NCBI RefSeq assembly: GCF_003015185.1
Contig: NZ_CP027860.1
Location: 4,867,001 to 4,931,000 of the forward strand
Origin: Ahniella affigens
GTDB taxonomy: Bacteria; Pseudomonadota; Gammaproteobacteria; Xanthomonadales; Ahniellaceae
Direction of reading: 5' to 3'
DNA length: 64,000 nt
Under the pieces are notes generated by a model. That model did not search any database. It was not told the origin of the DNA and saw nothing but the letters and a program-made list of their open reading frames with translations. A program made the translations under genes and the position numbers. Positions 19,784-48,505 of this stretch are shown piece by piece; the first letter of the stretch is position 1; every line of letters starts with the position of its first letter.

Positions 19784-19950
19784 CTAGTGGCGTATTCCGA
19801 AGTAAGCGTGAAGAACACTTGGGAGCATTTCGAGTCAAGGCAAAGCGCGAGGAGGCGTCGTAGAGGAATCTACGGCGACGACGAGTTGCGCCGCATTGGT
19901 TCGATCGGCGCAGAAGATTTGTTCGAGCGATTTCCGCAACACGACACTTG
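19784..19950. repeat. Diverged copy of MITE-like repeat
   Basis: Shares with the element at 60746 a core including ATTTCGAGTCAAGGCAA, CTACGGCGACGACGA and a GCAT.GG.TCGATCGG segment, over about 165 bases. It starts CTAGTG like the other copy, and its right end (TTTCCGCAACACGACAC) is a degraded form of that copy's terminal repeat. It fills most of the gap between the Sel1 gene and the gene at 19999. Confidence 0.75.
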
Positions 19951-19998
19951 TTTGCGGCTGACATGCCGCACCGTCGAGCCAACCCAAGGAGGGACGAC

Positions 19999-21078
19999 AT
20001 GTTGGGGTTTACCAGTAAATGTTGGTGGAAGTGTTCCGTGTTCTGCGCACTGATTGTGGTGTCCTGCGCGCCGATAGCGGCCGTGCGCCTATCGCTCGAA
20101 TCACCAACCGGAATCAGCAATCTCGTCGTACCGCCTGGCGGCAATGGCGTCTGGACGTTCCGCGTCCGAAACGTAGGCGACAGCGCAGGCGCGGTTGACT
20201 TCACGCTGCAAGAGCGCCGCTACAATGTATCGTCGTTCGATCAGTACGTCTGGACGAGTCTGAGCTCTGGCTGCGGCGCGGCGAGTTCGCAACTCGTGTA
20301 CTCACAGATGCTGCTGAAACTGCCGATTAGCAGCCTCAACGTTGGCGAAGCGCGCACCTGCAGCTACCGAATCGATCGCACCGCCAACAGTCGCGACGAT
20401 CTGGGCTTTCGGCTGTGTAGCTTTGAGATCGATTGGGTCGATTGCTATCGGCACCAACTCAACATCGGCAACCTGCCTGACACGGCGCTTCGCGTAGAGC
20501 GGGTCGGTCCCGCAGCACCGGGTTCCAGTGCCACGCTGTTTCGACTGAGTGCCACTAACCCTAGTGCACATGCCATCAGCAGCCGCATTGCGACGACGGC
20601 CTGTCGTGAGTTTTCTGGGGGCATTTTTGACACAACGCCCTATTTGATCGACACCGATTTCCCTGGCAGTTGCCCCACGGCGTTGGGCGAAATCTGCCTG
20701 AACTTTACCGGTCAGAATTTTGATGCGGTGGGCTTTGAACTCGGACCAATTCCAGCGCAAGGAACCAACTCCTGCCTGATCAAGCTGGTCCCACGCCCGG
20801 ACCCGCCGCCCAGTTGGTACAACCTGGGTCCGTACGTGACGCCGATGTACTTCCGGGACGACCGGGTTGGTCTGGCCGATGGCGGGCTGGCATTCGATCC
20901 GGACATCGCCAGTGACCAGACCACCATGGGCGCGCCGGAAAGCCATTCCGTGCCGATCAGCGCCGGTGCAATGGGGTTGCTTGCGATCCTGATGATGATG
21001 CTTGCGGGTTGGTCGCAACGGCGCTTGCGGACTGCAGTCGATTCATCTGCCTCGCATTCGTCTAAGCGGGCAAGGTGA
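19999..21078 (+). CDS. Secreted cysteine-rich protein with C-terminal membrane anchor (paralog A)
   Basis: A 359-residue exported protein with an N-terminal signal (CSVFCALIVVSCAPIAAVRL). A beta-rich domain (PPGGNGVWTFRVRNVGDSAG) is followed by a second half containing ACREFSGGIFDTTPYLIDT and GEICLNFTGQNFDAVGFEL. Near the C-terminus VPISAGAMGLLAILMMMLAG is a single span followed by WSQRRLR, like the IPTL/PEP-type sorting tails of gammaproteobacteria. The function is unknown. The ATG at 19999 has a strong AAGGAGGG. The next gene codes for a paralog, 70 bases on. Confidence 0.75.
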   Translation: MLGFTSKCWWKCSVFCALIVVSCAPIAAVRLSLESPTGISNLVVPPGGNGVWTFRVRNVGDSAGAVDFTLQERRYNVSSFDQYVWTSLSSGCGAASSQLVYSQMLLKLPISSLNVGEARTCSYRIDRTANSRDDLGFRLCSFEIDWVDCYRHQLNIGNLPDTALRVERVGPAAPGSSATLFRLSATNPSAHAISSRIATTACREFSGGIFDTTPYLIDTDFPGSCPTALGEICLNFTGQNFDAVGFELGPIPAQGTNSCLIKLVPRPDPPPSWYNLGPYVTPMYFRDDRVGLADGGLAFDPDIASDQTTMGAPESHSVPISAGAMGLLAILMMMLAGWSQRRLRTAVDSSASHSSKRAR

Positions 21079-21148
21079 CGTGCTGGTGCACGAGCGATCC
21101 TATGGTCATCTGGTCGTTCAATGGATTCAGCGACGGTGTGCGACCGGC

Positions 21149-22156
21149 ATGATCGCTTTGCCAAGAGCGCGCGTGATGTGGGTGTTCGCAGCGGCTGCCA
21201 GCGCAGCCGCTGCGTCCCCGGCCCCGATGCAGATCGACGTATTGCCGGGCCAAGCCCAGCAGTTCGAGATCACGGCGACCAACGACGGCGATTCCACGCA
21301 GCAGTTCGAGGCTCGAGCGTATTGGCGCCAGAACGCCTTTGTCGCCAACGTCGATATCGGTCGGGAGTACACGTTTTCGAGTCTCGACTCGCGATGCGCG
21401 ACGTTGAATGTAACGCCAATTTCGCAGCAGTTTGGGCTCCGCGTTGATTTCGGGCCATTGCACGCGGGCCAGAGCCGTCGGTGTGGGTTCTCCGTGTATC
21501 GGCACCCAGATTCAACGAAGAGTCTCGGTCTCTCGGCGTGTGTCAGCGATGTTCGCTATTTCAGTACGTGTGAGCCTTATGACTTGAACTTCGGCACCAT
21601 GGTGCCAACTCGCATTACAGTCGGCCGTCCGGTTCAGCCCGCAGCGCCAGACGGCTCTTACGTGCTCGATTTGACTGTTCACAACTTGAGCTTGCAATCC
21701 CTACCGGCACGCGTGGTGACGACCGACTGCCAGGAGTTTGAAGGCAGTCTCTTCAGCACCCCGCCATTCCATCTCGACACGAGCATTCCAGGCGGCTGCG
21801 CGCTCAGCGACGGCGAACTGTGCCTCAATGTTACCGGTCAAAACTACAGGTCCTACGGTTTCTTAACCGCATCCACCTCCCCTGGCGCCAGCAGCAGTTG
21901 CCACGTTCGGGTCGTTCCCAATTCCGCGACCACTTGGTCCACCCACTTCAGCGCAGCGCTCTATTTTCTCAATGATTATGCCGATTCAGGCAACGGCAAC
22001 TTGGTGTTCGCGCCGAGTCAGACGCAAGCCCGAATTCGGCTGGGTATGGACACGCGACCCGTGCCCGTGTCGCCAAGTGCAGCGCTTGTGATGGCGATGT
22101 TGATGATGGTCGCCAGCGCATTCACGAGTACGCGAAGGGCGCCTCGACAGCGCTGA
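21149..22156 (+). CDS. Secreted cysteine-rich protein with C-terminal membrane anchor (paralog B)
   Basis: A 335-residue protein related to its upstream neighbour: DCQEFEGSLFSTPPFHLDT and GELCLNVTGQNYRSYGF align with ACREFSGGIFDTTPYLIDT and GEICLNFTGQNFDAVGF, and both have a C-terminal span plus arginines (here VPVSPSAALVMAMLMMVAS then TSTRRAPRQR). The signal peptide is MWVFAAAASAAAASPA. The start at 21149 (MIALPRARVMW) is chosen because it directly precedes the signal; longer starts back to 21002 overlap the previous gene. A substrate or partner is unknown. The pair probably arose by tandem duplication. Confidence 0.7.
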   Translation: MIALPRARVMWVFAAAASAAAASPAPMQIDVLPGQAQQFEITATNDGDSTQQFEARAYWRQNAFVANVDIGREYTFSSLDSRCATLNVTPISQQFGLRVDFGPLHAGQSRRCGFSVYRHPDSTKSLGLSACVSDVRYFSTCEPYDLNFGTMVPTRITVGRPVQPAAPDGSYVLDLTVHNLSLQSLPARVVTTDCQEFEGSLFSTPPFHLDTSIPGGCALSDGELCLNVTGQNYRSYGFLTASTSPGASSSCHVRVVPNSATTWSTHFSAALYFLNDYADSGNGNLVFAPSQTQARIRLGMDTRPVPVSPSAALVMAMLMMVASAFTSTRRAPRQR

Positions 22157-23920: not shown

Positions 23921-23948
23921 CCCTGCCCCGCGCAGGGCTTTTGTTTTG
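23921..23948 (+). terminator. Rho-independent terminator after ahcY
   Basis: Stem CCCTGC...GCAGGG with a CCCGC loop, followed by CTTTTGTTTT. On the minus strand the same stem is followed by ATTTTGTT, so it could serve the converging operon at 23965-30222 as well. Confidence 0.75.
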
Positions 23949-23964: not shown

Positions 23965-26900
23965 TCAGTCGGTACGCAGGCACTGCGAGAGATTCGGCGT
24001 TTCCGCAGCCTCAAAGCCGCCACTGAATACCAAGTCACCGTTCGAGACCGGCATGGCCGCCAGACGCGTCACGCGGAATTCCGACAATCGCGCATTGCTG
24101 TTATTCAAGCTCAGGCCGCCGCGGCCGGTTGGTGGCGCGCCTTGCACGGGCAGTTGCAGCAAAGGCGCGCCATCGACATCAGCCCGGAACACATTGCCGT
24201 CAAAGCTTAGACGCAGCGCGTAGGGATGATTCGGCAGAATCTTCGAGACGTCGGCCGTCACGCTGACGCGCGTGCCGCCAACCAATTGGTACAAGGTCCA
24301 TCGGTTGCTGAACTCATTCATCGACACGCCAACCTGATTGGCCGAATCGCGGTACCAGCCCAGCAGCGTCAATGCGTCCGACGGGCTGCTGCCGAGTGAG
24401 GTCAGCGTCACCGTGGCCTCGATCTCGCATTCGCGACACACCCCATCCTGATCAAGCGCTGTGGCGATGCCGGCCACATCCAGCGCGTGACCGAACAGAC
24501 TGCCGGGGACCATTGCCCAAACCGAATCCGGTGCATAGTCCCAGTCTGCCGGGCGCGCGCCCTCGAACGTCTCGTACGTGAGATAGCCCTCTTGGCGCAC
24601 GGAGGTGCTGGCCACGTCGATATTCTGTGCGCGTAGCGCGAGGTTCGAGCTGCGTTCGGTCTCGCTGAGATTCAAGTCGATGACGCCCGTTGATTGATCA
24701 CTGCCCTCTCCGGCCAGACCATCCAGCACCTCGATCCACGCTGCGCCGGAGTGCAGCGTCCACAAACAGCCATCGGTAGCGGTAACGTCGAGCGAAAATG
24801 CGCGGCCATCCGGGCACGCCGCGATGCTTGCTGGATCCAACGTGTAATTGCACGCCAGGCCTGCTTGCGTCACGGCCAGCGTTTGATCGCCAATGCTGAC
24901 AGTGCCTGTGCGTGGCTGGACCGTCGGATTGTCGAGCACAAAGATCTCGATCGCACCGTCGCCCGTACCTGAGGCGCCGTTTTGAACCAGAATCCAGCTG
25001 GCACGACTCACAGCGGTCCAGCGACAAACGCCCGGGGTATCAAGATTCACCGTATACGACGCATCACCACTTGCGCTCGCCGAAACGCTGGTTTGATCCA
25101 ACGCGTAAGTGCAGCCGGCTTGCGCGACCGAGATGCTCACTTCGTCACTGTCCAACGTGACATTGCGCGTGCCGGCCGCTTGGTTCGCCTGAGCGGCATT
25201 CGCATCGACACTCAATCGCACCTGACCATCGCCGAACACGGGTTCGAGCGGCGACAGAATGGTGATCCATGGCACGGGGCTGGAAACGATCCACGGGCAC
25301 TCAGGCACCGACGCATCGACTTGCACGGTGCTCGTCCCACCTTCAACGCCAATATTCAGCGATCCTGTGTCGACCGTGAACTGACAATCGCCATCTTGAT
25401 CGACTGGTATGGTTTTTGTGATCGCGGGTGTGGCGAGACTGATCTGCACCGCGCCACTGCGGTCAAACACGCCCACTGGTGCTGCAAACGGGGCGATGTC
25501 CACATTGACGACCCCGTTGCCGACATTACTGACCGGGGTCGTGATCGTGATCCACGGTTCGGTCGCGCTGACCGTCCAATTGCAGTTCGGGCGCGTGGTC
25601 ACGTTCAGCGTTTCGGTGCTGCCGGCGCTCTCACTCACGAGGCTGTTTGGCGCAACTTCCAGATAGCAAATCGCGTCGTCCAGGATGTGCACTATCAGAT
25701 CGGTCGCAGACAGTTGCACCGCATTCGGTGCATTGAGACGCAGATGAAACGTCTCGGTATCTTCTGGTGTCTCGTCACCCAAGACGGTCAGCACGATCGT
25801 GGCATCGGTCGCACCGGCGACGATCTGCACCGAACCGCTGCGCGCCACGTAGTCGGTGCCTGCGAGCGCAGTGCCATCGCCGGTCTGGTATTGGATTTGC
25901 AGATTTGCGGCGACCGGCTCGGCGAGATTCAGATGAATTTGGAATTCCGTCGATTGACCACTGTCGGGCTCGGGAATGGTGCGGCACTGCAATGGGTCGT
26001 TGTTGGCGCAGTCGGGGGTAATGGGCGGCGTGTTGTCGTCGTCGTCAATGACAATGTTGGCGCGCTCCTCGCCATTTCGGATCACCGCATTGACCGGCTG
26101 CTCAAATTCCACCGTAAAGCGCTCGTCGTCCTCGTAGGTGTGATCCGGCAGCAGCGACAACAAGACGGTCGCCGCCGTCTGCGCCGTGGTGCCGTCAAAC
26201 ACCACCGTATCCTGGGCCAGTGCGTAATCCTGCCCGGCCAACGCGGTGCCGTTCCGCGTGTAGTAGGACACCTGCACGTTTTCGCCGTTGGGCTGCGGCT
26301 TGGTCAGCGTCACATTGATCGCCGCTGACGGTGGCGCGCCCGGACCGGGATCGCCCTCCGACACCGTCACGTTGTTGACCTCGATCTGCGCCGGCAAGTC
26401 GATTCGTGTCAACGTCGCCCGGTCGAAATAGCTCCGGGCCATCACCAACTGGCCGTTCCGCTGAAACTGCAGATGGAATTGCTCGACCCCAAAGCAGCTG
26501 CCCAAATCGAATCGCGTGATCGGAATCAGCTGACCCTCGATCACCAACTGTGTCCGGGTCAGGCAGCCGCCATTCTGCTGCGTTTCGCGCGTCGCCAGCA
26601 CGTAATCGCCCGTTGCCGGATCACCAGCCAGCTCAAACAGGTCGCCCGGCAGAACCACTGTTTCCGGTGACACGATGACGGCCGTGTGGTCAATCGTCGC
26701 GCTGACCAGGTTGCTGCCCGTGCTCCACGCGTGCACAAATCGATCGGCGTCGACCGACACGACTTTGGGTGCTCGATTCGGCGACGCGTCATGACCCATG
26801 CCGTCGCGAACGATCGCACTCAGTTGGCGCTCTGGACTAATCGTGCCACTGGCGCGCAACGTGCGCGTCAGGATCGTGCCTTGACACGCGCTGTAGAAGC

Positions 26901-27576
26901 TCGGCTTGATCCACGTAAACGCCACATCGCCCGCACTGTTAACGGCCAGGTCCGAATTACCTCGGAACGCACAGAGATTCAGATTCGTCCCCGGATAGTC
27001 GACGAGCAACGGCATGCCGGTGTTGGCACCGGTGTTGTTGTAGGTATAGACGCGCGCTTGCACGTCCTGACCAACGCCCAACACGCCGGAACCCCCCACC
27101 CACGGCCCACTCGGCGTAGCCGCGATGGACACATCGAACCAGTTGAGCGCCGGCAGAATTTCCACCGCTGCAAACAGCACGCTGCCATTTCGGGTCCAGC
27201 CGCTCATTCGCGCGCGCCGACTGCCGCCGCTCTGCGTCGTCATGACGACCATGAAGAAATTGCCGTTATCGGCCACGTCCAGATCAATGGCCTGAACCCG
27301 TTCACCTGCAAAATTGGTGGTCGAGATGCCCGTCAATGCACTGTTGTTGACGTCATACAGCTGACAGTAGACGCGATCGAAGGTACCCATGTCGACGGCG
27401 TGACACAGCGCATGATCGCCGCTGGCGGCGTTGACGCGATGCGCGATCTGCACGGCCAAGTCTTCGCTACCCAGCGTGACAACCGACTCGGGGCCGATCC
27501 GAACCAGATTGGCCAAGCCGGCACTCGCGTGGAGCACCAGCAACAGAAGCAGCAAGATCGCGAGGCGCTTATTCAA
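23965..27576 (-). CDS. Large exported Calx-beta/BACON-like repeat protein
   Basis: A 1203-residue exported protein (signal MNKRLAILLLLLLVLHASAG). Residues about 25-390 form a beta-rich N-terminal region. Two Calx-beta domains follow (GNGTALAGQDYALAQDTVVF with YEDDERFTVEFE; GDGTALAGTDYVARSGSVQI with PEDTETFHLRL), which in other proteins bind calcium. Then four BACON-like repeats of about 90 residues, each with a CxWT or CPW turn (CNWTVSATEPWITI, CPWIVSSPVPWITI, CRWTAVSRASWILV, CLWTLHSGAAWIEV). A jelly-roll-like domain ends the protein with LVFSGGFE and 14 more residues. Probably a surface adhesin or matrix protein. It overlaps the stop of the upstream gene by 8 bases. Confidence 0.75.
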   Translation of the reverse strand: MNKRLAILLLLLLVLHASAGLANLVRIGPESVVTLGSEDLAVQIAHRVNAASGDHALCHAVDMGTFDRVYCQLYDVNNSALTGISTTNFAGERVQAIDLDVADNGNFFMVVMTTQSGGSRRARMSGWTRNGSVLFAAVEILPALNWFDVSIAATPSGPWVGGSGVLGVGQDVQARVYTYNNTGANTGMPLLVDYPGTNLNLCAFRGNSDLAVNSAGDVAFTWIKPSFYSACQGTILTRTLRASGTISPERQLSAIVRDGMGHDASPNRAPKVVSVDADRFVHAWSTGSNLVSATIDHTAVIVSPETVVLPGDLFELAGDPATGDYVLATRETQQNGGCLTRTQLVIEGQLIPITRFDLGSCFGVEQFHLQFQRNGQLVMARSYFDRATLTRIDLPAQIEVNNVTVSEGDPGPGAPPSAAINVTLTKPQPNGENVQVSYYTRNGTALAGQDYALAQDTVVFDGTTAQTAATVLLSLLPDHTYEDDERFTVEFEQPVNAVIRNGEERANIVIDDDDNTPPITPDCANNDPLQCRTIPEPDSGQSTEFQIHLNLAEPVAANLQIQYQTGDGTALAGTDYVARSGSVQIVAGATDATIVLTVLGDETPEDTETFHLRLNAPNAVQLSATDLIVHILDDAICYLEVAPNSLVSESAGSTETLNVTTRPNCNWTVSATEPWITITTPVSNVGNGVVNVDIAPFAAPVGVFDRSGAVQISLATPAITKTIPVDQDGDCQFTVDTGSLNIGVEGGTSTVQVDASVPECPWIVSSPVPWITILSPLEPVFGDGQVRLSVDANAAQANQAAGTRNVTLDSDEVSISVAQAGCTYALDQTSVSASASGDASYTVNLDTPGVCRWTAVSRASWILVQNGASGTGDGAIEIFVLDNPTVQPRTGTVSIGDQTLAVTQAGLACNYTLDPASIAACPDGRAFSLDVTATDGCLWTLHSGAAWIEVLDGLAGEGSDQSTGVIDLNLSETERSSNLALRAQNIDVASTSVRQEGYLTYETFEGARPADWDYAPDSVWAMVPGSLFGHALDVAGIATALDQDGVCRECEIEATVTLTSLGSSPSDALTLLGWYRDSANQVGVSMNEFSNRWTLYQLVGGTRVSVTADVSKILPNHPYALRLSFDGNVFRADVDGAPLLQLPVQGAPPTGRGGLSLNNSNARLSEFRVTRLAAMPVSNGDLVFSGGFEAAETPNLSQCLRTD

Positions 27577-28915
27577 AGGAACTCCTCATCATCGTGCTGG
27601 ACGGTGCGGCGCCCGGGGTGGTCAAGAGGCGATACGCCTGCCCATACAGATCGTAGGCTTCGAGCGGATTGCCCAGGTTGTAGGCTTGATCGCCGGCGAC
27701 CAGTTTCGCGCTGGCAGCATCGGTATTGATGCCCAACGCCGCATAAGCATTCAACGCCCGAATCAACACTTCGCGCGAGCGTTCGAGCTCGCCGCCTTGC
27801 GCGGCCGGCAGCCGATAGCGGATCACCACGCGATTGGGCGCGCCGAGTGCCAGCGCCAAATGACGGTCGCGCTGTTCCGACGCTGCCGTCTGTTGCGCTG
27901 TTTGAGCCGCGGTCAGCGCGTCCGCAACTTGGCGCTGTTGGCCGCGGATCGCCTCGCCGTGCTGCGTTAACGGCAGCATCATCGCCTGCAGATCCGCCAA
28001 TCGGTCCTGCACGTCTTCAACGTTGACCTGAGCCGCCTGCATGCGAAATTGGGCATCATGAATGTCGGCAGCCAAAGCCGTGAGCCCATTGGCCAGCGCG
28101 AGTGCGTCGTCGAGCAGATCTGCGAGTTCGGCGTTGGCTTGATGATCGTCGGTCGAGACGGTCGTGCGCAGTTCGGCCAGTCGGATCAGCAGTGAGTCCA
28201 GGCTGTCCTGCATGGTATCGAGTGCGCTCTGGGTGGCACGACTCGACACCGTCGCGTCCGCACGCTGATTCAGGTGATCGACCACGTTCGATTGGGTTTG
28301 CGCCAGCGCCGACAGAGTGGCGTCACGCTGATCACCCAGACAGAAGGATTCCTGATCGTATTCAGTCTGCAGCGCTTCAGTCTCGATGGCGAGTGCAGTG
28401 CACAGGAAGGCCGAGTTCTCGCCCGCTTCCGTTTGCAAGCAGGCCCATTTGGCGGCGGCAAGAATCTCTGATGACGCTGCCCACGCTTCGAGCATCGCGT
28501 GCGCAGTCGCCGCGGATGCGCTGACGCACCGGGACATTGGCGCGGGCTCCGGGAACTCGATCGCTTTCGGTACCGGTGTGATGGCGCTGATCGGTCCGTT
28601 GGCTGCATTGTTGAAGCTAGTTGCCAATGACTGCAGTCGACGTTGCAATGCTGATGCATTGCGCTCCGATAGCGGGAGTTGCCGCCAGAACGCCTCGTTG
28701 CCTGCTCGCGCTAGGACTTTGCGCATGGTCACGCTCGCAGGTGCGAGCTCTTGGCCTCGCGCGGCGCGCCAACGGTCGTGCAAGTCGAGTACGGCCTGCA
28801 GTACCTGCGGGGTCGACGTGCTTGGTGGCTTGGCGTCGGGCGGTTCACGACTCGGTGCGGCGAATATCGGCCAACTCAGACCCAGCAGTACGATGATGCG
28901 CCAGGCCGTATTCAC
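27569..28915 (-). CDS. Exported helical protein, operon partner (paralog 2)
   Basis: A 448-residue protein starting at GTG 28915; this GTG overlaps the upstream TGA as GTGA, so I prefer it over the ATG at 28984. The signal peptide is WRIIVLLGLSWPIFA. The middle part is a long helical, alanine- and glutamine-rich region (DSLLIRLAELRTTVSTDDHQ, QDRLADLQAMMLPLTQ). The last 100 residues contain LPAAQGGELERSREVLIRAL and GDQAYNLGNPLEAYDLYGQA, a TPR-like unit also found in its upstream neighbour. It ends MMRSSFE. Function unknown; partner of the Calx-beta protein by operon structure. Confidence 0.75.
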   Translation of the reverse strand: MNTAWRIIVLLGLSWPIFAAPSREPPDAKPPSTSTPQVLQAVLDLHDRWRAARGQELAPASVTMRKVLARAGNEAFWRQLPLSERNASALQRRLQSLATSFNNAANGPISAITPVPKAIEFPEPAPMSRCVSASAATAHAMLEAWAASSEILAAAKWACLQTEAGENSAFLCTALAIETEALQTEYDQESFCLGDQRDATLSALAQTQSNVVDHLNQRADATVSSRATQSALDTMQDSLDSLLIRLAELRTTVSTDDHQANAELADLLDDALALANGLTALAADIHDAQFRMQAAQVNVEDVQDRLADLQAMMLPLTQHGEAIRGQQRQVADALTAAQTAQQTAASEQRDRHLALALGAPNRVVIRYRLPAAQGGELERSREVLIRALNAYAALGINTDAASAKLVAGDQAYNLGNPLEAYDLYGQAYRLLTTPGAAPSSTMMRSSFE

Positions 28916-30222
28916 GGAGTACCCCCGGCGATTGCCGCGACGTTCGGGTCCAGTTGCCGATACGCCGTCGCGTACCAGTTCCAAGCTTCGGGATATTGAC
29001 CCGCGTTGTAGTGCGCATCGCCCGTGCTGAGGCTGACCAACGCAGCTGCCGTGTTGCCTTGCCCCAGTGACTGCAAGGCCGTGATGGCTTCGATGACGAC
29101 CTCGCGCGCTTCTTCGAGTCGTCCACCAGAGCTGGAAGGCAACGCGAACAAGGCCGCAGTCGCAATGGGATCACCGAGTGCGAGGCCGAGTTCGTCGCGT
29201 CGCTGCTGTCGCGCACTGGCCTGGATGGTCGACGCCAGCGTCGCACTGTTGGTGGCGAGTTGGCTTGACTGCGTCCGCGCCAAGTTCAAAACGGTGTTCA
29301 GTTCGGTCGCACGGGCTTGCACGTCGGCGCTGCGGTCCTGCGCGTCTTCGATATCCACTTGCGTCGCCTGAACACGAAACACCAGCTCATCGGTCCGCGA
29401 CTGAATGTCGGCAAGCTGCTGACCAAGACCCGCCAGATCGGTCACGAGGTCATCCAACTGCGCATCCAGCTGCACGAAGTCTTGGGCGTGTTGTGTCTGC
29501 AACGCCGCGCTGGCCGTGTCGGCCGAATCGGCAGCGTCGGCCGCTTCATCCAGCGCGACTTGCGACGCCCGGGTCGAAATCGGCGCATCGAGTTGCAGAT
29601 TCAGGTGCCGGCCGATACTCCGCTCGGTTTCAAGCATGGCGGTGTTGCTCGCAGCGCTGAGTTGATTGCCGCAGAAGTCGGCCAGAGTAGAAGCGATTTC
29701 CGCTGCTGCCGCGGCGATCTCGGGCGCTTCGCAACCGAGTGCCGTGTTGAATCCCAGCACGCTGGTGTGGCACGTGAACTCGGCCGCCTCGATCACATGC
29801 CGGGTGACCAACTTTGTGCCGAGTGCGGCGTAGACAACGGGCGCTGGGTAGTCGGTGCAGAACGACGGCGTGACATTGGGCGCCGCCACGATTGCATTCT
29901 TGGCCCCTGCCGGAGCCGACGCGCGCAATCCGCGTTGTGCCTCGGTCACCAATACGTGGAATTGGCTCGCAGTCAGGCTGGTCTGCAGCGCGTCAACCTG
30001 GGCGTCACTGAACTGGGCGAACAGCAACGCGGCGCGATCGAGCGTCTCATCCGATCCCGGCGCGTTGGACCCAGCCCGCGCTCGCACGTCGCGCACGACG
30101 TCGATCATCGCGACGAGATCGCTTCGGTAATGATCTTGCGCGGATTCGGCACACCGGCCAATGCACGGCAACAGCGCGACTAGAAGGCCCAGAGCAGGCA
30201 CTGCGCGATGGCACACACGCAT
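28912..30222 (-). CDS. Exported helical protein, operon leader (paralog 1)
   Basis: A 436-residue protein with signal RAVPALGLLVALLPCIGRCA. It shares layout with the next gene: cysteines in the first half (TPSFCTDYPAP, FTCHTSVLGFNTALGCEAPE), a long coiled or helical stretch (FVQLDAQLDDLVTDLAGLGQ), and a C-terminal TPR-like unit (LPSSSGGRLEEAREVVIEAI, GDAHYNAGQYPEAWNWYATA). The start at 30222 has GGAGGGA four bases away. It leads an operon of three exported proteins joined by 4- and 8-base overlaps. No homologous system is recognised. Confidence 0.75.
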   Translation of the reverse strand: MRVCHRAVPALGLLVALLPCIGRCAESAQDHYRSDLVAMIDVVRDVRARAGSNAPGSDETLDRAALLFAQFSDAQVDALQTSLTASQFHVLVTEAQRGLRASAPAGAKNAIVAAPNVTPSFCTDYPAPVVYAALGTKLVTRHVIEAAEFTCHTSVLGFNTALGCEAPEIAAAAAEIASTLADFCGNQLSAASNTAMLETERSIGRHLNLQLDAPISTRASQVALDEAADAADSADTASAALQTQHAQDFVQLDAQLDDLVTDLAGLGQQLADIQSRTDELVFRVQATQVDIEDAQDRSADVQARATELNTVLNLARTQSSQLATNSATLASTIQASARQQRRDELGLALGDPIATAALFALPSSSGGRLEEAREVVIEAITALQSLGQGNTAAALVSLSTGDAHYNAGQYPEAWNWYATAYRQLDPNVAAIAGGTP

Positions 30223-43804: not shown

Positions 43805-46800
43805 CTAGAAATTCTCCTCCGAGAATCGCTTTGCGGCGAAATAGCAACACCATTTCCGAGCTCCGCTTGGCGTGTACAAGGCTGCTCGATGTTTCTGCTC
43901 CTGGTTCTTTGAGCCTTTGGATATTGAACCTGGCATCACATAATCACATTTGAGTTTGAGGTACTTCTTCCGCAACTGAACTGCTGTTGCCCAGCACGCA
44001 CAGTTCGCTGACGCATCGTCACAAGCCATATCTTTTGTGCATCTCTTGCATACGCCACCTGATCCCGGCGGCCACCCTTCAAGACGCGAGTACGCCGTGT
44101 AAGCCGCCATACACGTCGCTAACCTTTTCCCATATTCTCGCATCATCTTCTCAGCAGCCTTTCTAGCCGCTCCTCCGCCAACCCGACCAGCCTGCTCCCC
44201 AAAAGGATCTATTGCATCGAGCGGATTCGCCTCAACGTAGCTATAGGTGCTTACGCCTCCCTCCAACCCGATAGGATCACTTTCCACGTATCGGCCCGTT
44301 ATCGCCTCATAGTCGCGCATATAGTTATAGTTCAACTCGGTATCACGGTCATAGTACTGCCCAGGGAACCGGAGATTGAAAACCATCGCGCCACCATCGC
44401 CATCTGGATCCTCATTGGGTGGGGTATTACCAAACGGATCGGTCAGAACATCCCAGGACCACTTGGATTGGTCAAGGCCCATAACGCGGCGCGGAGTAGC
44501 AAGGTGATCGACTTCAATCGCGAATGCGCTCCCTCCGCTGACCATCGACACCGGCAGGTCGTCGACCCAGAAGTACTCCGCCAGAACTGACGCTGATTGA
44601 TCGGCGTACTCGCCTATCAGACGACCCGACTCATCGAAGACATAGCCGTAGATGCGGCCACCTTCGATGATTCGCTCTTTGAGCACTCGCTCACCCTTGT
44701 AGTTGTATTTGAATTGCGATCGAGCCTGCCCGCTTACCGAGACTTCAGTCATTCGATTGTGATCGCCGTAGCTAAAGTTCGGGCTTGCTGGATTCGTAGT
44801 TGCAGGAGTGGTCAGGTTTCCGTTCGGGTCGTAGGTGCGGCTTACACCGGCAACTGAGACTAGCCTATGTGAAGTGGGCTGATAGTCGTATGTTTGCGAG
44901 CTTCCCACCTGATCGGTGCTGAAGCTCATTCGATTGCCTGTTGCGTCGTAGGTATAGGATCGTATGTTCGAGCCATTTTCCTGCTGCCCCGTCAGGCGAT
45001 ACAGCGCATCGTAGGTGTACCCTCGATTAGTCGTTCCGGCAATGATCGCGGCGATGTTTCCGAGGTCGTCCAACTCGTAGTTCGCTTGAAGTCCCGTTGG
45101 TGCTGACGAAGCGATTTCATCAATCCAGTAGTTCTGATCATAGGTTCTTGTTTGAGTCACTCCTGTACCCCAGGTGATCTGCGAGACAGGGCCGAAAGGC
45201 AAGTAGGCAACGTCCGCAATCAGCACGGATTCAACCGACAAGGGCGTTTCCTGCATATGGACTACCGCTACCCTCCCCAGTGAATCTCGTTGATACCGAA
45301 TGCTTCTGCCACTCGGGTAAGTGACTGTTTCGATCTGGTCAGACTTGGTGTAAGTGTAAACTACCTGATTGGCGCCACCAGTTGTTATCTGTACCTTCGA
45401 TACTATGCGCCCTTGCCGGTCGTAGCAGTACGCCGTGCTGCCGGACTGGTCCGTAACAAAACCCAGGCGGCCAATCTGGTAGCCATTGGTGCATCCACTT
45501 GGTGCCATGTCGTAGCTGTACACCTCGTTCAACGACGTGTCCAAATACGAACGCGTTGCCAGTCGTCCGAGCGCATCATAGGTATTGGTGGTTACTTTGC
45601 CCCGGGCATCTGTTTGCGTCAGAACGTTGCCGGCCTGATCGTGCGTGTAAAGCGTCGTGCCGGTATCGGGGCTCTGCAACTGGGTCAGGTCATCCAGGCC
45701 ATTGTACGTGTAGATCGTTTGCAGCGACTTGGGATCAATCACCTTGCGGGTATTGTCGCGAGTGTCGTACTCGTACTGGGTGGTGGCGTTGATGCCGCCC
45801 GTCGCCTTGTCTTCGACGACTTTCTTTAGGCGATTCAGCTCATCGTAGTCGTGGTCGGTCACGCGACCAAGGGGATCGATCAGCAGGTCCAGGTTGCCGT
45901 TCATGTCATAGATATTGCTCGTCTTCTTGACAGCGGGATCGTCGAGATTCGGCATGCCGGCATATGGCGCGTTGATCTGCGCCTTTAGTCGGGAGAACCC
46001 ATCGAACTGGGCGGCAAGGAGGCGCTTGACGTTGCCTTGCGGGTCTTTGGTCTGTTCCAGTGTGCGGTTGCCGGCGGCATCCAAGACGTAGGTGATCTGG
46101 TTACCAAGATTGTCGGAGACGCCAACCAGACGGTGCGCGCTGTCGTAGCTGTATTCGAGGTAGCTGCCGTCAGGCTGGGTGTTTCGTTTCACAGCACCGA
46201 ATGATTCGTAAGTCACCGAAGTGGTGATGTCGTCTGCCGAGGGGGTGCCATCGGCATTCGCGCGCACGGTTGTATCTTGGATTCGACCCAGGGTGTCGTA
46301 GGCATAGTCGGTCAGCACGCCATTCGGGTCGCGCACTCGGGCGAGACGACCGGCGAGGTCATACTTGACGTACTCGGTCACATGCCCCAACGCATTCGTC
46401 ACCGTATGCAGGTCGCCGCGACGGTAGGCGCAAGCAGTCGCACTCAGCGCGCAGTTGGGGTCATCGGACTGGTAGTAGGCCATCGTCGTGATGTCGGCGA
46501 CATCGGTTCTCGGGCCATCGATCGTTGCGAGTTGGCCCTTGATTGGGCACGTGTTCGGGTCATTGGAGCCAGGGCCCGTGCAGAGATATGCATAGGTGGT
46601 TTGGCGGACGCCTAGTGACGCATTCGCCGCGCTGCCGCAGGCATAAGTGGATGCGCCAGAGACGGCGGGGTCGTGGGTACACTCGGCGGTCACTTGGCCG
46701 CGATCGTTATACGCCCAGCTCTTGATCTGCTCCAGCACATTCAGGTTGTTGTAACGACGCTTCTTGATGGGCAGACGGAACGTGGGGTGCCAATCAGTCT

Positions 46801-48505
46801 GAATCGTGCGCTTGACAGTTGGGTTGGTCACGCCCGGCGCGCTCTTCGCTTCGATGCGTTGGGTTTCCAGAGCGCGTGCCGAGTCCCACGTGTATTCAGT
46901 GCGAACACCGCGGAGATCAATCGTTGCTGCCAACGTACCGTCGCCGTTGTAGCTGTTGGACATGGTGTTCGAGCCGCAGCTAGCGCAGTTGTCAGTCTGC
47001 GTGTAGAGGCGCCGCACGTTGCCCGAGACGCGGATGTTCGCGGTGCTCGACTGGTTCAGCGCGTTGGTGATGGTCACGTTGCGCTGACCGGTCGGGACAC
47101 CGCTGTAGCTATATGAGAATGCGAACTGGCGGATATCCGTACCGCCAACTCGAATGAACTCTTCCGAGACGCGATTGTTGACATAGGTGTACCGACGGTG
47201 CTGAACGCCCAACTCATCCTTGATGCCCGTCAACCCGGATGGGAATGCGGCATCTTCGTACAGGAACTGGCGCGTGCCGGCTGCGGTGGTGATGCCGACC
47301 ACGATGCCTGGCTGCCGGGTGTCGACGACAACGGTCTGGCCAGACTGATCGGCAATTTCGAATCGCTTGCCAACGGTGACATTGTGAACCGGCCCAAAGT
47401 CCTGCTGAACGTCTTCGCTATCAATCAAGACGGATCGTCCACTCTGATCCGTCAGCGCAACGGTATTGGTTCCCCAAGCGACGTTGACCGTTCTGCCATC
47501 GGCGTATTCGATGGACATCAGTCGTCCGTCGAGGCCAAACTGCCATTGGCTTTGATCAAGGTCGGTCAGCAGGAATCCGCTCGCATTGATGACAACAGTT
47601 CGACCAAAGGTCTTGGTCACGTTGATGGCTGTGTAGACACCCGATGTGTTCTTTCGAAGCATGATCGGTTCGCTGCCAGCGATATGCACAATGATCGCAT
47701 TGGCATCGTAGTTGCGTACGCGGCGATCGAACGCGAATCGCCAGTAGTTTCCGAGAATGCCTTCGGCTCCGGCGGGTCCCCACTGACCATAGGAGCGATA
47801 GTAGACCTGCAGCAGATCACTCATGCTGAGCCCGGCGAGGGTGGTCTCAGAGTGTCGCTTTTCGCCCGAGGCAGGGTCGACGGGATTCGCGACGTCGCAA
47901 ACATCGCCGGTAATGTCGCCGCACATGATCTTGCCGGTACCAACGATCGGATAGGCTGCGGCGTCCAGCGGGCAGTTCAGCGTTGCCGAGTAGCCCACCA
48001 TGAAGTTCTCATTCACAGCGACGCCAGGGTTACACCCGTTTTCGTCCTTGCGCATATAGCTGACGTTCTTGATCTTCTTGTCAAGCGTCAGATACCCAGA
48101 CTCCCAGGTTTGGCCCACTGTGCCGCAGCCTGGATCGGCTCCCGCTGTGACGGCGATGGTTGCGCAGCCGGGGTCAATACCCCCGAAGGCGTTCAACTGT
48201 TGCTCGGAGATGTCGTTCGTCCAGGCCCCCACACCCATGAACAGTCCAGCAGGAAGCCCCACACACGAGGGATTGCCACTGGGTGGCACTACCCACGACC
48301 CACCCGCTGCCTGACAGAGGCGGCGATTCTTCTCGTTGATGTTGACGCTGATGCACGCGCTCATGCCCCACTGGGACGAACGAGGCACGGGCGTATCACA
48401 AAATAGTGATCCCGATCCCATGTTTGCGCACGCGGAGATTTGCGCCTCAGCACTTGGGATCAGCCCAAGCGCGACCGCAACGACAGCAAGAATTCGTTTC
48501 ATCAT
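43805..48505 (-). CDS. Secreted RHS/YD-repeat protein with variable C-terminal tip
   Basis: A 1566-residue protein. Signal peptide MMKRILAVVAVALGLIPSAE. Residues about 20-210 are a cysteine-rich N-terminal domain. DVCDVANPVDPASGEKRHSE near 210 opens the shell as in DUF6531. Many YD repeats follow, e.g. YDTLGRIQDTTVR, YDELNRLKKVVED, YTYDATGNRMSFS. The RHS core closes with YNYMRDYEAITGRYVESDPI and NPLDAIDPFG near residue 1390-1430. The last 120 residues are a separate cysteine-rich tip (CKRCTKDMACDDASANCACW, DYVMPGSISKGSKNQEQKHR, WCCYFAAKRF), the usual place of a toxin domain. In RHS proteins the shell encloses the tip. No immunity gene is visible directly downstream. Confidence 0.88.
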   Translation of the reverse strand: MMKRILAVVAVALGLIPSAEAQISACANMGSGSLFCDTPVPRSSQWGMSACISVNINEKNRRLCQAAGGSWVVPPSGNPSCVGLPAGLFMGVGAWTNDISEQQLNAFGGIDPGCATIAVTAGADPGCGTVGQTWESGYLTLDKKIKNVSYMRKDENGCNPGVAVNENFMVGYSATLNCPLDAAAYPIVGTGKIMCGDITGDVCDVANPVDPASGEKRHSETTLAGLSMSDLLQVYYRSYGQWGPAGAEGILGNYWRFAFDRRVRNYDANAIIVHIAGSEPIMLRKNTSGVYTAINVTKTFGRTVVINASGFLLTDLDQSQWQFGLDGRLMSIEYADGRTVNVAWGTNTVALTDQSGRSVLIDSEDVQQDFGPVHNVTVGKRFEIADQSGQTVVVDTRQPGIVVGITTAAGTRQFLYEDAAFPSGLTGIKDELGVQHRRYTYVNNRVSEEFIRVGGTDIRQFAFSYSYSGVPTGQRNVTITNALNQSSTANIRVSGNVRRLYTQTDNCASCGSNTMSNSYNGDGTLAATIDLRGVRTEYTWDSARALETQRIEAKSAPGVTNPTVKRTIQTDWHPTFRLPIKKRRYNNLNVLEQIKSWAYNDRGQVTAECTHDPAVSGASTYACGSAANASLGVRQTTYAYLCTGPGSNDPNTCPIKGQLATIDGPRTDVADITTMAYYQSDDPNCALSATACAYRRGDLHTVTNALGHVTEYVKYDLAGRLARVRDPNGVLTDYAYDTLGRIQDTTVRANADGTPSADDITTSVTYESFGAVKRNTQPDGSYLEYSYDSAHRLVGVSDNLGNQITYVLDAAGNRTLEQTKDPQGNVKRLLAAQFDGFSRLKAQINAPYAGMPNLDDPAVKKTSNIYDMNGNLDLLIDPLGRVTDHDYDELNRLKKVVEDKATGGINATTQYEYDTRDNTRKVIDPKSLQTIYTYNGLDDLTQLQSPDTGTTLYTHDQAGNVLTQTDARGKVTTNTYDALGRLATRSYLDTSLNEVYSYDMAPSGCTNGYQIGRLGFVTDQSGSTAYCYDRQGRIVSKVQITTGGANQVVYTYTKSDQIETVTYPSGRSIRYQRDSLGRVAVVHMQETPLSVESVLIADVAYLPFGPVSQITWGTGVTQTRTYDQNYWIDEIASSAPTGLQANYELDDLGNIAAIIAGTTNRGYTYDALYRLTGQQENGSNIRSYTYDATGNRMSFSTDQVGSSQTYDYQPTSHRLVSVAGVSRTYDPNGNLTTPATTNPASPNFSYGDHNRMTEVSVSGQARSQFKYNYKGERVLKERIIEGGRIYGYVFDESGRLIGEYADQSASVLAEYFWVDDLPVSMVSGGSAFAIEVDHLATPRRVMGLDQSKWSWDVLTDPFGNTPPNEDPDGDGGAMVFNLRFPGQYYDRDTELNYNYMRDYEAITGRYVESDPIGLEGGVSTYSYVEANPLDAIDPFGEQAGRVGGGAARKAAEKMMREYGKRLATCMAAYTAYSRLEGWPPGSGGVCKRCTKDMACDDASANCACWATAVQLRKKYLKLKCDYVMPGSISKGSKNQEQKHRAALYTPSGARKWCCYFAAKRFSEENF

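Follow-up and report, generated by a model that had tools for sequence, protein, structure and literature searches.

A conserved three-gene cassette of predicted exported proteins in Ahniella affigens, comprising two paralogous helical proteins and a large protein with a beta-propeller, Calx-beta and BACON-like architecture

Organization of the locus

The window, the whole 64,000-nucleotide stretch of the Ahniella affigens genome analyzed here, carries on its minus strand three overlapping genes, referred to as A, B, and C, followed by a hairpin; re-reading of the DNA returned the same coordinates and strand for the three genes as an earlier note on this sequence:

28912 to 30222, minus strand: gene A, 436 residues, ATG start; Sec-type leader, four-cysteine helical region, coiled coil, and TPR-like tail
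27569 to 28915, minus strand: gene B, 448 residues, GTG start; its layout matches that of its paralog A
23965 to 27576, minus strand: gene C, 1203 residues, TTG start
23921 to 23937, minus strand, readable on both strands: terminator-like hairpin just 3' of C (CCCTGCGCGGGGCAGGG, then a T-rich tail)

The starts of the cassette genes combine ribosome-binding-like sites with exact overlaps. The ATG of A is preceded by GGAGGGAG and the TTG of C, at position 27576, by GAGGAG, and the overlaps of 4 and 8 bases reported earlier are confirmed as (i) GTGA between A and B, with the GTG start of B at 28915 placed over the stop codon of A, and (ii) TTGAATAA between B and C. Overlaps between the cassette genes recur in the relatives; the overlap of B and C measures 8 bases in the window and mostly 4 bases elsewhere, with two cases of a single base. 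This arrangement suggests that translation is coupled, not that stoichiometry is fixed; the fixed ratios deduced in the earlier note do not follow from it. Judged by eye, A, B, and C all display Sec-type leaders. A promoter scan of the region disclosed no sigma-70-like promoter, and a hairpin scan found no excess of terminator-like sites over shuffles in the region overall.

In the window, the gene diverging from the cassette bears a weak resemblance to GDSL lipases that stays below cut-off, and no type 1 secretion genes occur among the neighbors read in the window or in the relatives. Elsewhere in the window, two adjacent paralogous exported proteins (19948 to 22156, plus strand; 30% identity) end in a hydrophobic stretch followed by arginines, resembling a CTERM-type anchor with no NCBIfam match, and a 1566-residue RHS/YD-repeat protein (TIGR03696, TIGR01643) is encoded at 43805 to 48505 on the minus strand.

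In two of the relatives (G042 and G152), the gene immediately upstream of the cassette, on the same strand, encodes a TPR-bearing Ser/Thr kinase, and a Trans_reg_C/TPR regulator adjoins it in two others (G043 and G096). The presence of kinases and regulators beside the cassette, at loci L012, L013, L030, and L036, suggests regulation by an outside signal. The same neighbors would suit a sensing module, in which C together with A and B detects such a signal and relays it to the kinase or transmembrane regulator; we regard this as quite improbable, since no gene of that kind stands beside the cassette in the window, G027, G118, or G112, and the neighboring kinases and regulators could simply regulate the cassette.

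Architecture of the three proteins

Residues 115-424 of A align with residues about 122-431 of B (35% identity, E 5e-37, 311 columns), revealing the two proteins as paralogs. The C-terminal unit that the earlier note had seen in both is present (GDAHYNAGQYPEAW / GDQAYNLGNPLEAY, the tail unit common to A and B) and the tail is the best-conserved part of the alignment, but the relationship was understated, with paralogy spanning about 310 residues. Among the relatives of the window type, a tail block comprising LP, GG, LE, RE, and GD-x-AYN is nearly invariant, and four cysteines are invariant, corresponding to C122, C151, C164, and C184 in A. By a crude measure, both proteins show their strongest heptad periodicity at residues about 225-350. 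AF2 predicts A to be entirely helical, with low confidence (mean pLDDT 58); the model is best in the tail, about residues 361-424, which appears as paired helices consistent with one TPR-like hairpin. Despite these predicted helices, the TPR label attached to the proteins earlier is weak, since no TPR model reached its cut-off in Pfam (TPR_11 in A with E 0.09 and 12.9 bits versus 26.8; none in B).

Sequence searches with A and B covered Pfam, NCBIfam, PHROGs, PADLOC, and the PDB. No Pfam or NCBIfam family was reached, no YbgF/CpoB model matched in either at E up to 1, and SMC, JetC, tropomyosin, and viral spike HR1 were dismissed as compositional, coiled-coil look-alikes. In a fold search with the model of A, Foldseek returned nothing below 0.001 and no Z reached 8; the uncertainty of the model does not allow a new fold to be claimed. 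CpoB/YbgF-type periplasmic proteins are exported and comprise a coiled coil followed by a TPR-like C-terminus, a layout shared by A and B, which differ from them in (i) reaching no TPR or YbgF model, with one TPR-like hairpin and four conserved cysteines, and (ii) forming a paralog pair in another gene context. A and B are two helical sister proteins whose family has no name, and they probably help to assemble or hold C.

Protein C is organized, from the N- to the C-terminus, as follows:

26392 to 27495, minus strand: beta-propeller of seven-blade size, C residues 28-395, from structure matches
25678 to 26394, minus strand: two Calx-beta domains, C residues about 395-633; best Pfam stretch 543-633, first boundary approximate
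24637 to 25668, minus strand: BACON-like repeats, C residues about 637-980; best Pfam stretch 639-694, BACON at 853-905 below cut-off
24028 to 24579, minus strand: beta-sandwich, C residues about 1000-1183, conserved and concanavalin-like by appearance
24010 to 24027, minus strand: FSGGFE, C residues 1184-1189, an FxxGFE motif 14 residues from the C end

The Calx-beta and BACON assignments made from the bare sequence are borne out, both families exceeding their Pfam cut-offs: PF03160 (Calx-beta) matches two stretches with E 6.2e-26 and 91.2 bits against a cut-off of 27, and PF19190 (BACON_2) reaches 38.6 bits against 25, with E 1e-9. PF13004 stays below its cut-off, and no family matched the beta-sandwich at about 1000-1183. 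The AF2 model of C, most of it of low confidence, is usable only in its N-terminal part and over some of the C-terminal domain, and identifies the N-terminal domain as a beta-propeller, a part where pLDDT lies mostly at 60-80; its seven-blade size is deduced from the structural matches, not from a direct count of blades. The best fold matches are the C-terminal propeller of CylK (Z 30.5, 3.4 A, 339 residues) and the integrin alpha propeller, the latter, YncE, lyases, and glycosidases scoring Z about 24-25. The CylK and integrin alpha matches show only about 7-11% sequence identity to the propeller of C, and the shared fold implies no function.

The occurrence of CylK, lyases, and glycoside hydrolases among these matches raises the prospect that C is secreted as an enzyme, such as a lyase or glycosidase, in which the propeller would be the catalytic domain and the remaining modules would serve in binding; A and B would then aid its folding or substrate capture. 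In favor of this reading, the C-terminal domain of C has weak relatives at the ends of enzyme-like exported proteins in three genomes, all from one genus of the order and all without A/B genes; many non-enzyme propellers match C equally (integrin alpha, YncE, WD40), and no catalytic family was reached by sequence in Pfam or NCBIfam. We consider an enzymatic role of C improbable.

The closest known architecture is that of BapP from Pseudoalteromonas tunicata, a proven biofilm adhesin built from a beta-propeller and Calx-beta repeats (PMC12153261). Like C, BapP is a large exported protein with a predicted Sec leader and an N-terminal beta-propeller followed by beta-sandwich repeats that match Calx-beta; unlike C, it displays a five-bladed propeller and 12 repeats, has no BACON domain, and is adjoined by type 1 secretion genes with no A/B pair (PMC12153261). 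The biofilm role of BapP was tested (PMC12153261); a similar role of C would be putative. Beyond BapP, the literature searched held nothing relevant to the domain combination of the cassette, and the earlier remark that no system of such composition has been described agrees with the databases and literature searched.

Conservation of the cassette and the FxxGFE ending

Searches across the order found A/B-type genes in 15 of 398 genomes and a cassette-type C, defined by its C-terminal domain at E below 1e-60, in 12. All 12 fall within the 15, with the pair adjoining C (hypergeometric 1.6e-20, a value that ignores phylogeny). The three A/B genomes outside this set comprise (i) G065, where an A/B gene is cut by the contig end; (ii) G113, where the contig ends within the C gene; and (iii) G228, with a pair and no detectable C in a genome 65% complete. 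The order of the genes, for which the earlier note had proposed a check, is conserved as A-B-C in the C-bearing genomes with one exception, G152, whose two paralogs flank C; G118 carries two tandem cassettes. The scattering of homologs that would have spoken against a unit was not observed, the pair standing beside C in 12 of 12 C-bearing genomes. Class-wide, no convincing relatives of the cassette were found outside the order: profile searches returned three weak partial matches for A/B besides the window, and weak single-domain matches, at 1e-7 or worse, for the C-terminal domain of C.

Two subfamilies are distinguished. The window type occurs in families f1, f8, and f9, and the second, in f7, f9, and f11, comprises A/B proteins without most of the coiled coil and C proteins without some of the BACON-region sequence. 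A single A clade and a single B clade were expected and not found in the tree; instead, A and B part from each other within the second subfamily and within the f1/f9 group, and they group as sisters in G152 and G112, both of f8, a pattern that both repeated duplication and gene conversion would fit. Every complete locus retains two diverged A/B copies, suggesting that both are needed. Dense bacterial genomes commonly contain overlapping genes, and the three might on that account be chance neighbors of unrelated function; adjacency and co-occurrence kept across several families of the order contradict this reading, to which we give hardly any credence, and argue for A-B-C as a real conserved unit.

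The FxxGFE ending extends well beyond the cassette. By counts that rest on DNA patterns, this genome holds 113 occurrences versus 18 for the reversed control, and 35 versus 0 when a stop codon follows. About two thirds of 30 inspected sites fall on the stop of a long frame or only a few residues away from it, with the consensus [ILVM]-F-x-[DNS]-G-F-E; 10 of 13 fully read frames begin with what a crude rule accepts as a plausible signal peptide. Counted with the stop codon, the endings number between about 5 and 48 in most genomes of f1, f4, f8, and f11; they are absent or nearly so from f9 and, apart from one genus, from f2, and stay at control level in the rest of the class. The F-E of the ending is kept in all cassette C proteins, those of the window type carrying further residues after it, and A and B lack the ending. 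The tail of C, DLVFSGGFEAAETPNLSQCLRTD, displays neither a transmembrane helix nor a basic cluster, as is the case for the other endings read. No NCBIfam model matched FxxGFE, and no description of a 'GFE motif' was found in the literature searched.

The GlyGly-CTERM, MYXO-CTERM, and PEP-CTERM signals comprise a motif, a transmembrane helix, and a basic cluster, and resemble FxxGFE as short C-terminal features placed on many unrelated exported proteins of one lineage (PMC3237569, PMC11980579). FxxGFE differs in the lack of helix, basic tail, and NCBIfam match. It stands on dozens of unrelated exported-type proteins, usually right in front of the stop codon, and may constitute an undescribed sorting tag. 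GspD of the type II secretion system is present in 100 of 101 genomes, too uniformly for a correlation with the ending, and the sole genome without it, G026, has zero FxxGFE endings, a suggestive single case that proves nothing. Near the G152 cassette, a separate 356-residue protein ends in IFASGFETD (L036, 14423 to 15493, plus strand), and at L069, L070, L071, and L073-L076, in the three genomes of one genus that lack A/B, several other exported-type proteins carry the C-terminal domain of C together with an F-x-x-E-F-E-like ending.

A model for the cassette

We tentatively favor, at slightly less than even odds, a model in which C acts in binding as a secreted or surface-held protein, assisted by A and B as two dedicated helical partners. 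The earlier proposal of a surface adhesin with dedicated periplasmic helpers is plausible, and the conservation of the cassette strengthens it; C probably works at the cell surface. We infer that A-B-C is inherited as one functional unit in which B and C are translationally coupled, partner and client thus being made together. C would cross to the periplasm via Sec and then leave the cell, ending secreted or surface-held, with FxxGFE as a putative exit mark, and its propeller, Calx-beta, and BACON domains would bind a ligand, probably with calcium, for which polysaccharide, another cell, and matrix are candidates. A and B would form a diverged coiled-coil pair, bearing disulfides and a TPR-like tail, that binds C or its export route and stabilizes, assembles, or hands over C.

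This model is favored by the propeller head and the Calx-beta/BACON region of C, which recall the verified adhesin BapP, and by the four invariant cysteines in the exported A and B. Against it weigh the low confidence of the models (pLDDT 58 for A, and most of C), the G228 pair without a detectable C in a 65% complete genome, the second-subfamily A/B proteins devoid of most of the coiled coil, and the rarity of the exact-end FxxGFE in f9, a cassette-bearing family.

The main structural alternative places A and B outside the cell as subunits leaving with C, as a coiled-coil stalk or fiber with the propeller protein as its head. Coiled coils occur in both A and B, their length differs between the subfamilies, as in stalks, and a single transcription unit with constant co-inheritance suits subunits as well as helpers. 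A and B, however, lack the FxxGFE ending and carry a TPR-like tail, and such tails are more usual in partner-binding proteins. The ending, which C bears, is common in the order on proteins with plausible signal peptides and absent from A and B, a distribution that fits C leaving and A and B staying. Periplasmic helpers are preferred, and the stalk arrangement is judged rather unlikely. A wider proposal, which we hold to be possible if doubtful, is that of an undescribed export and assembly system, with A and B as a new family of paired periplasmic partners dedicated to one class of large propeller protein and FxxGFE as an outward-sorting tag on C and dozens of other proteins.

Three genes that had no annotation can now be treated as a defined unit open to testing, comprising a large surface-type protein and two co-inherited partners. 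If A and B are dedicated assembly factors, they would represent a new Gram-negative way of handling very large exported proteins; if FxxGFE is a sorting signal, it would mark a whole exported set of the order and provide a handle on the machine that reads it.
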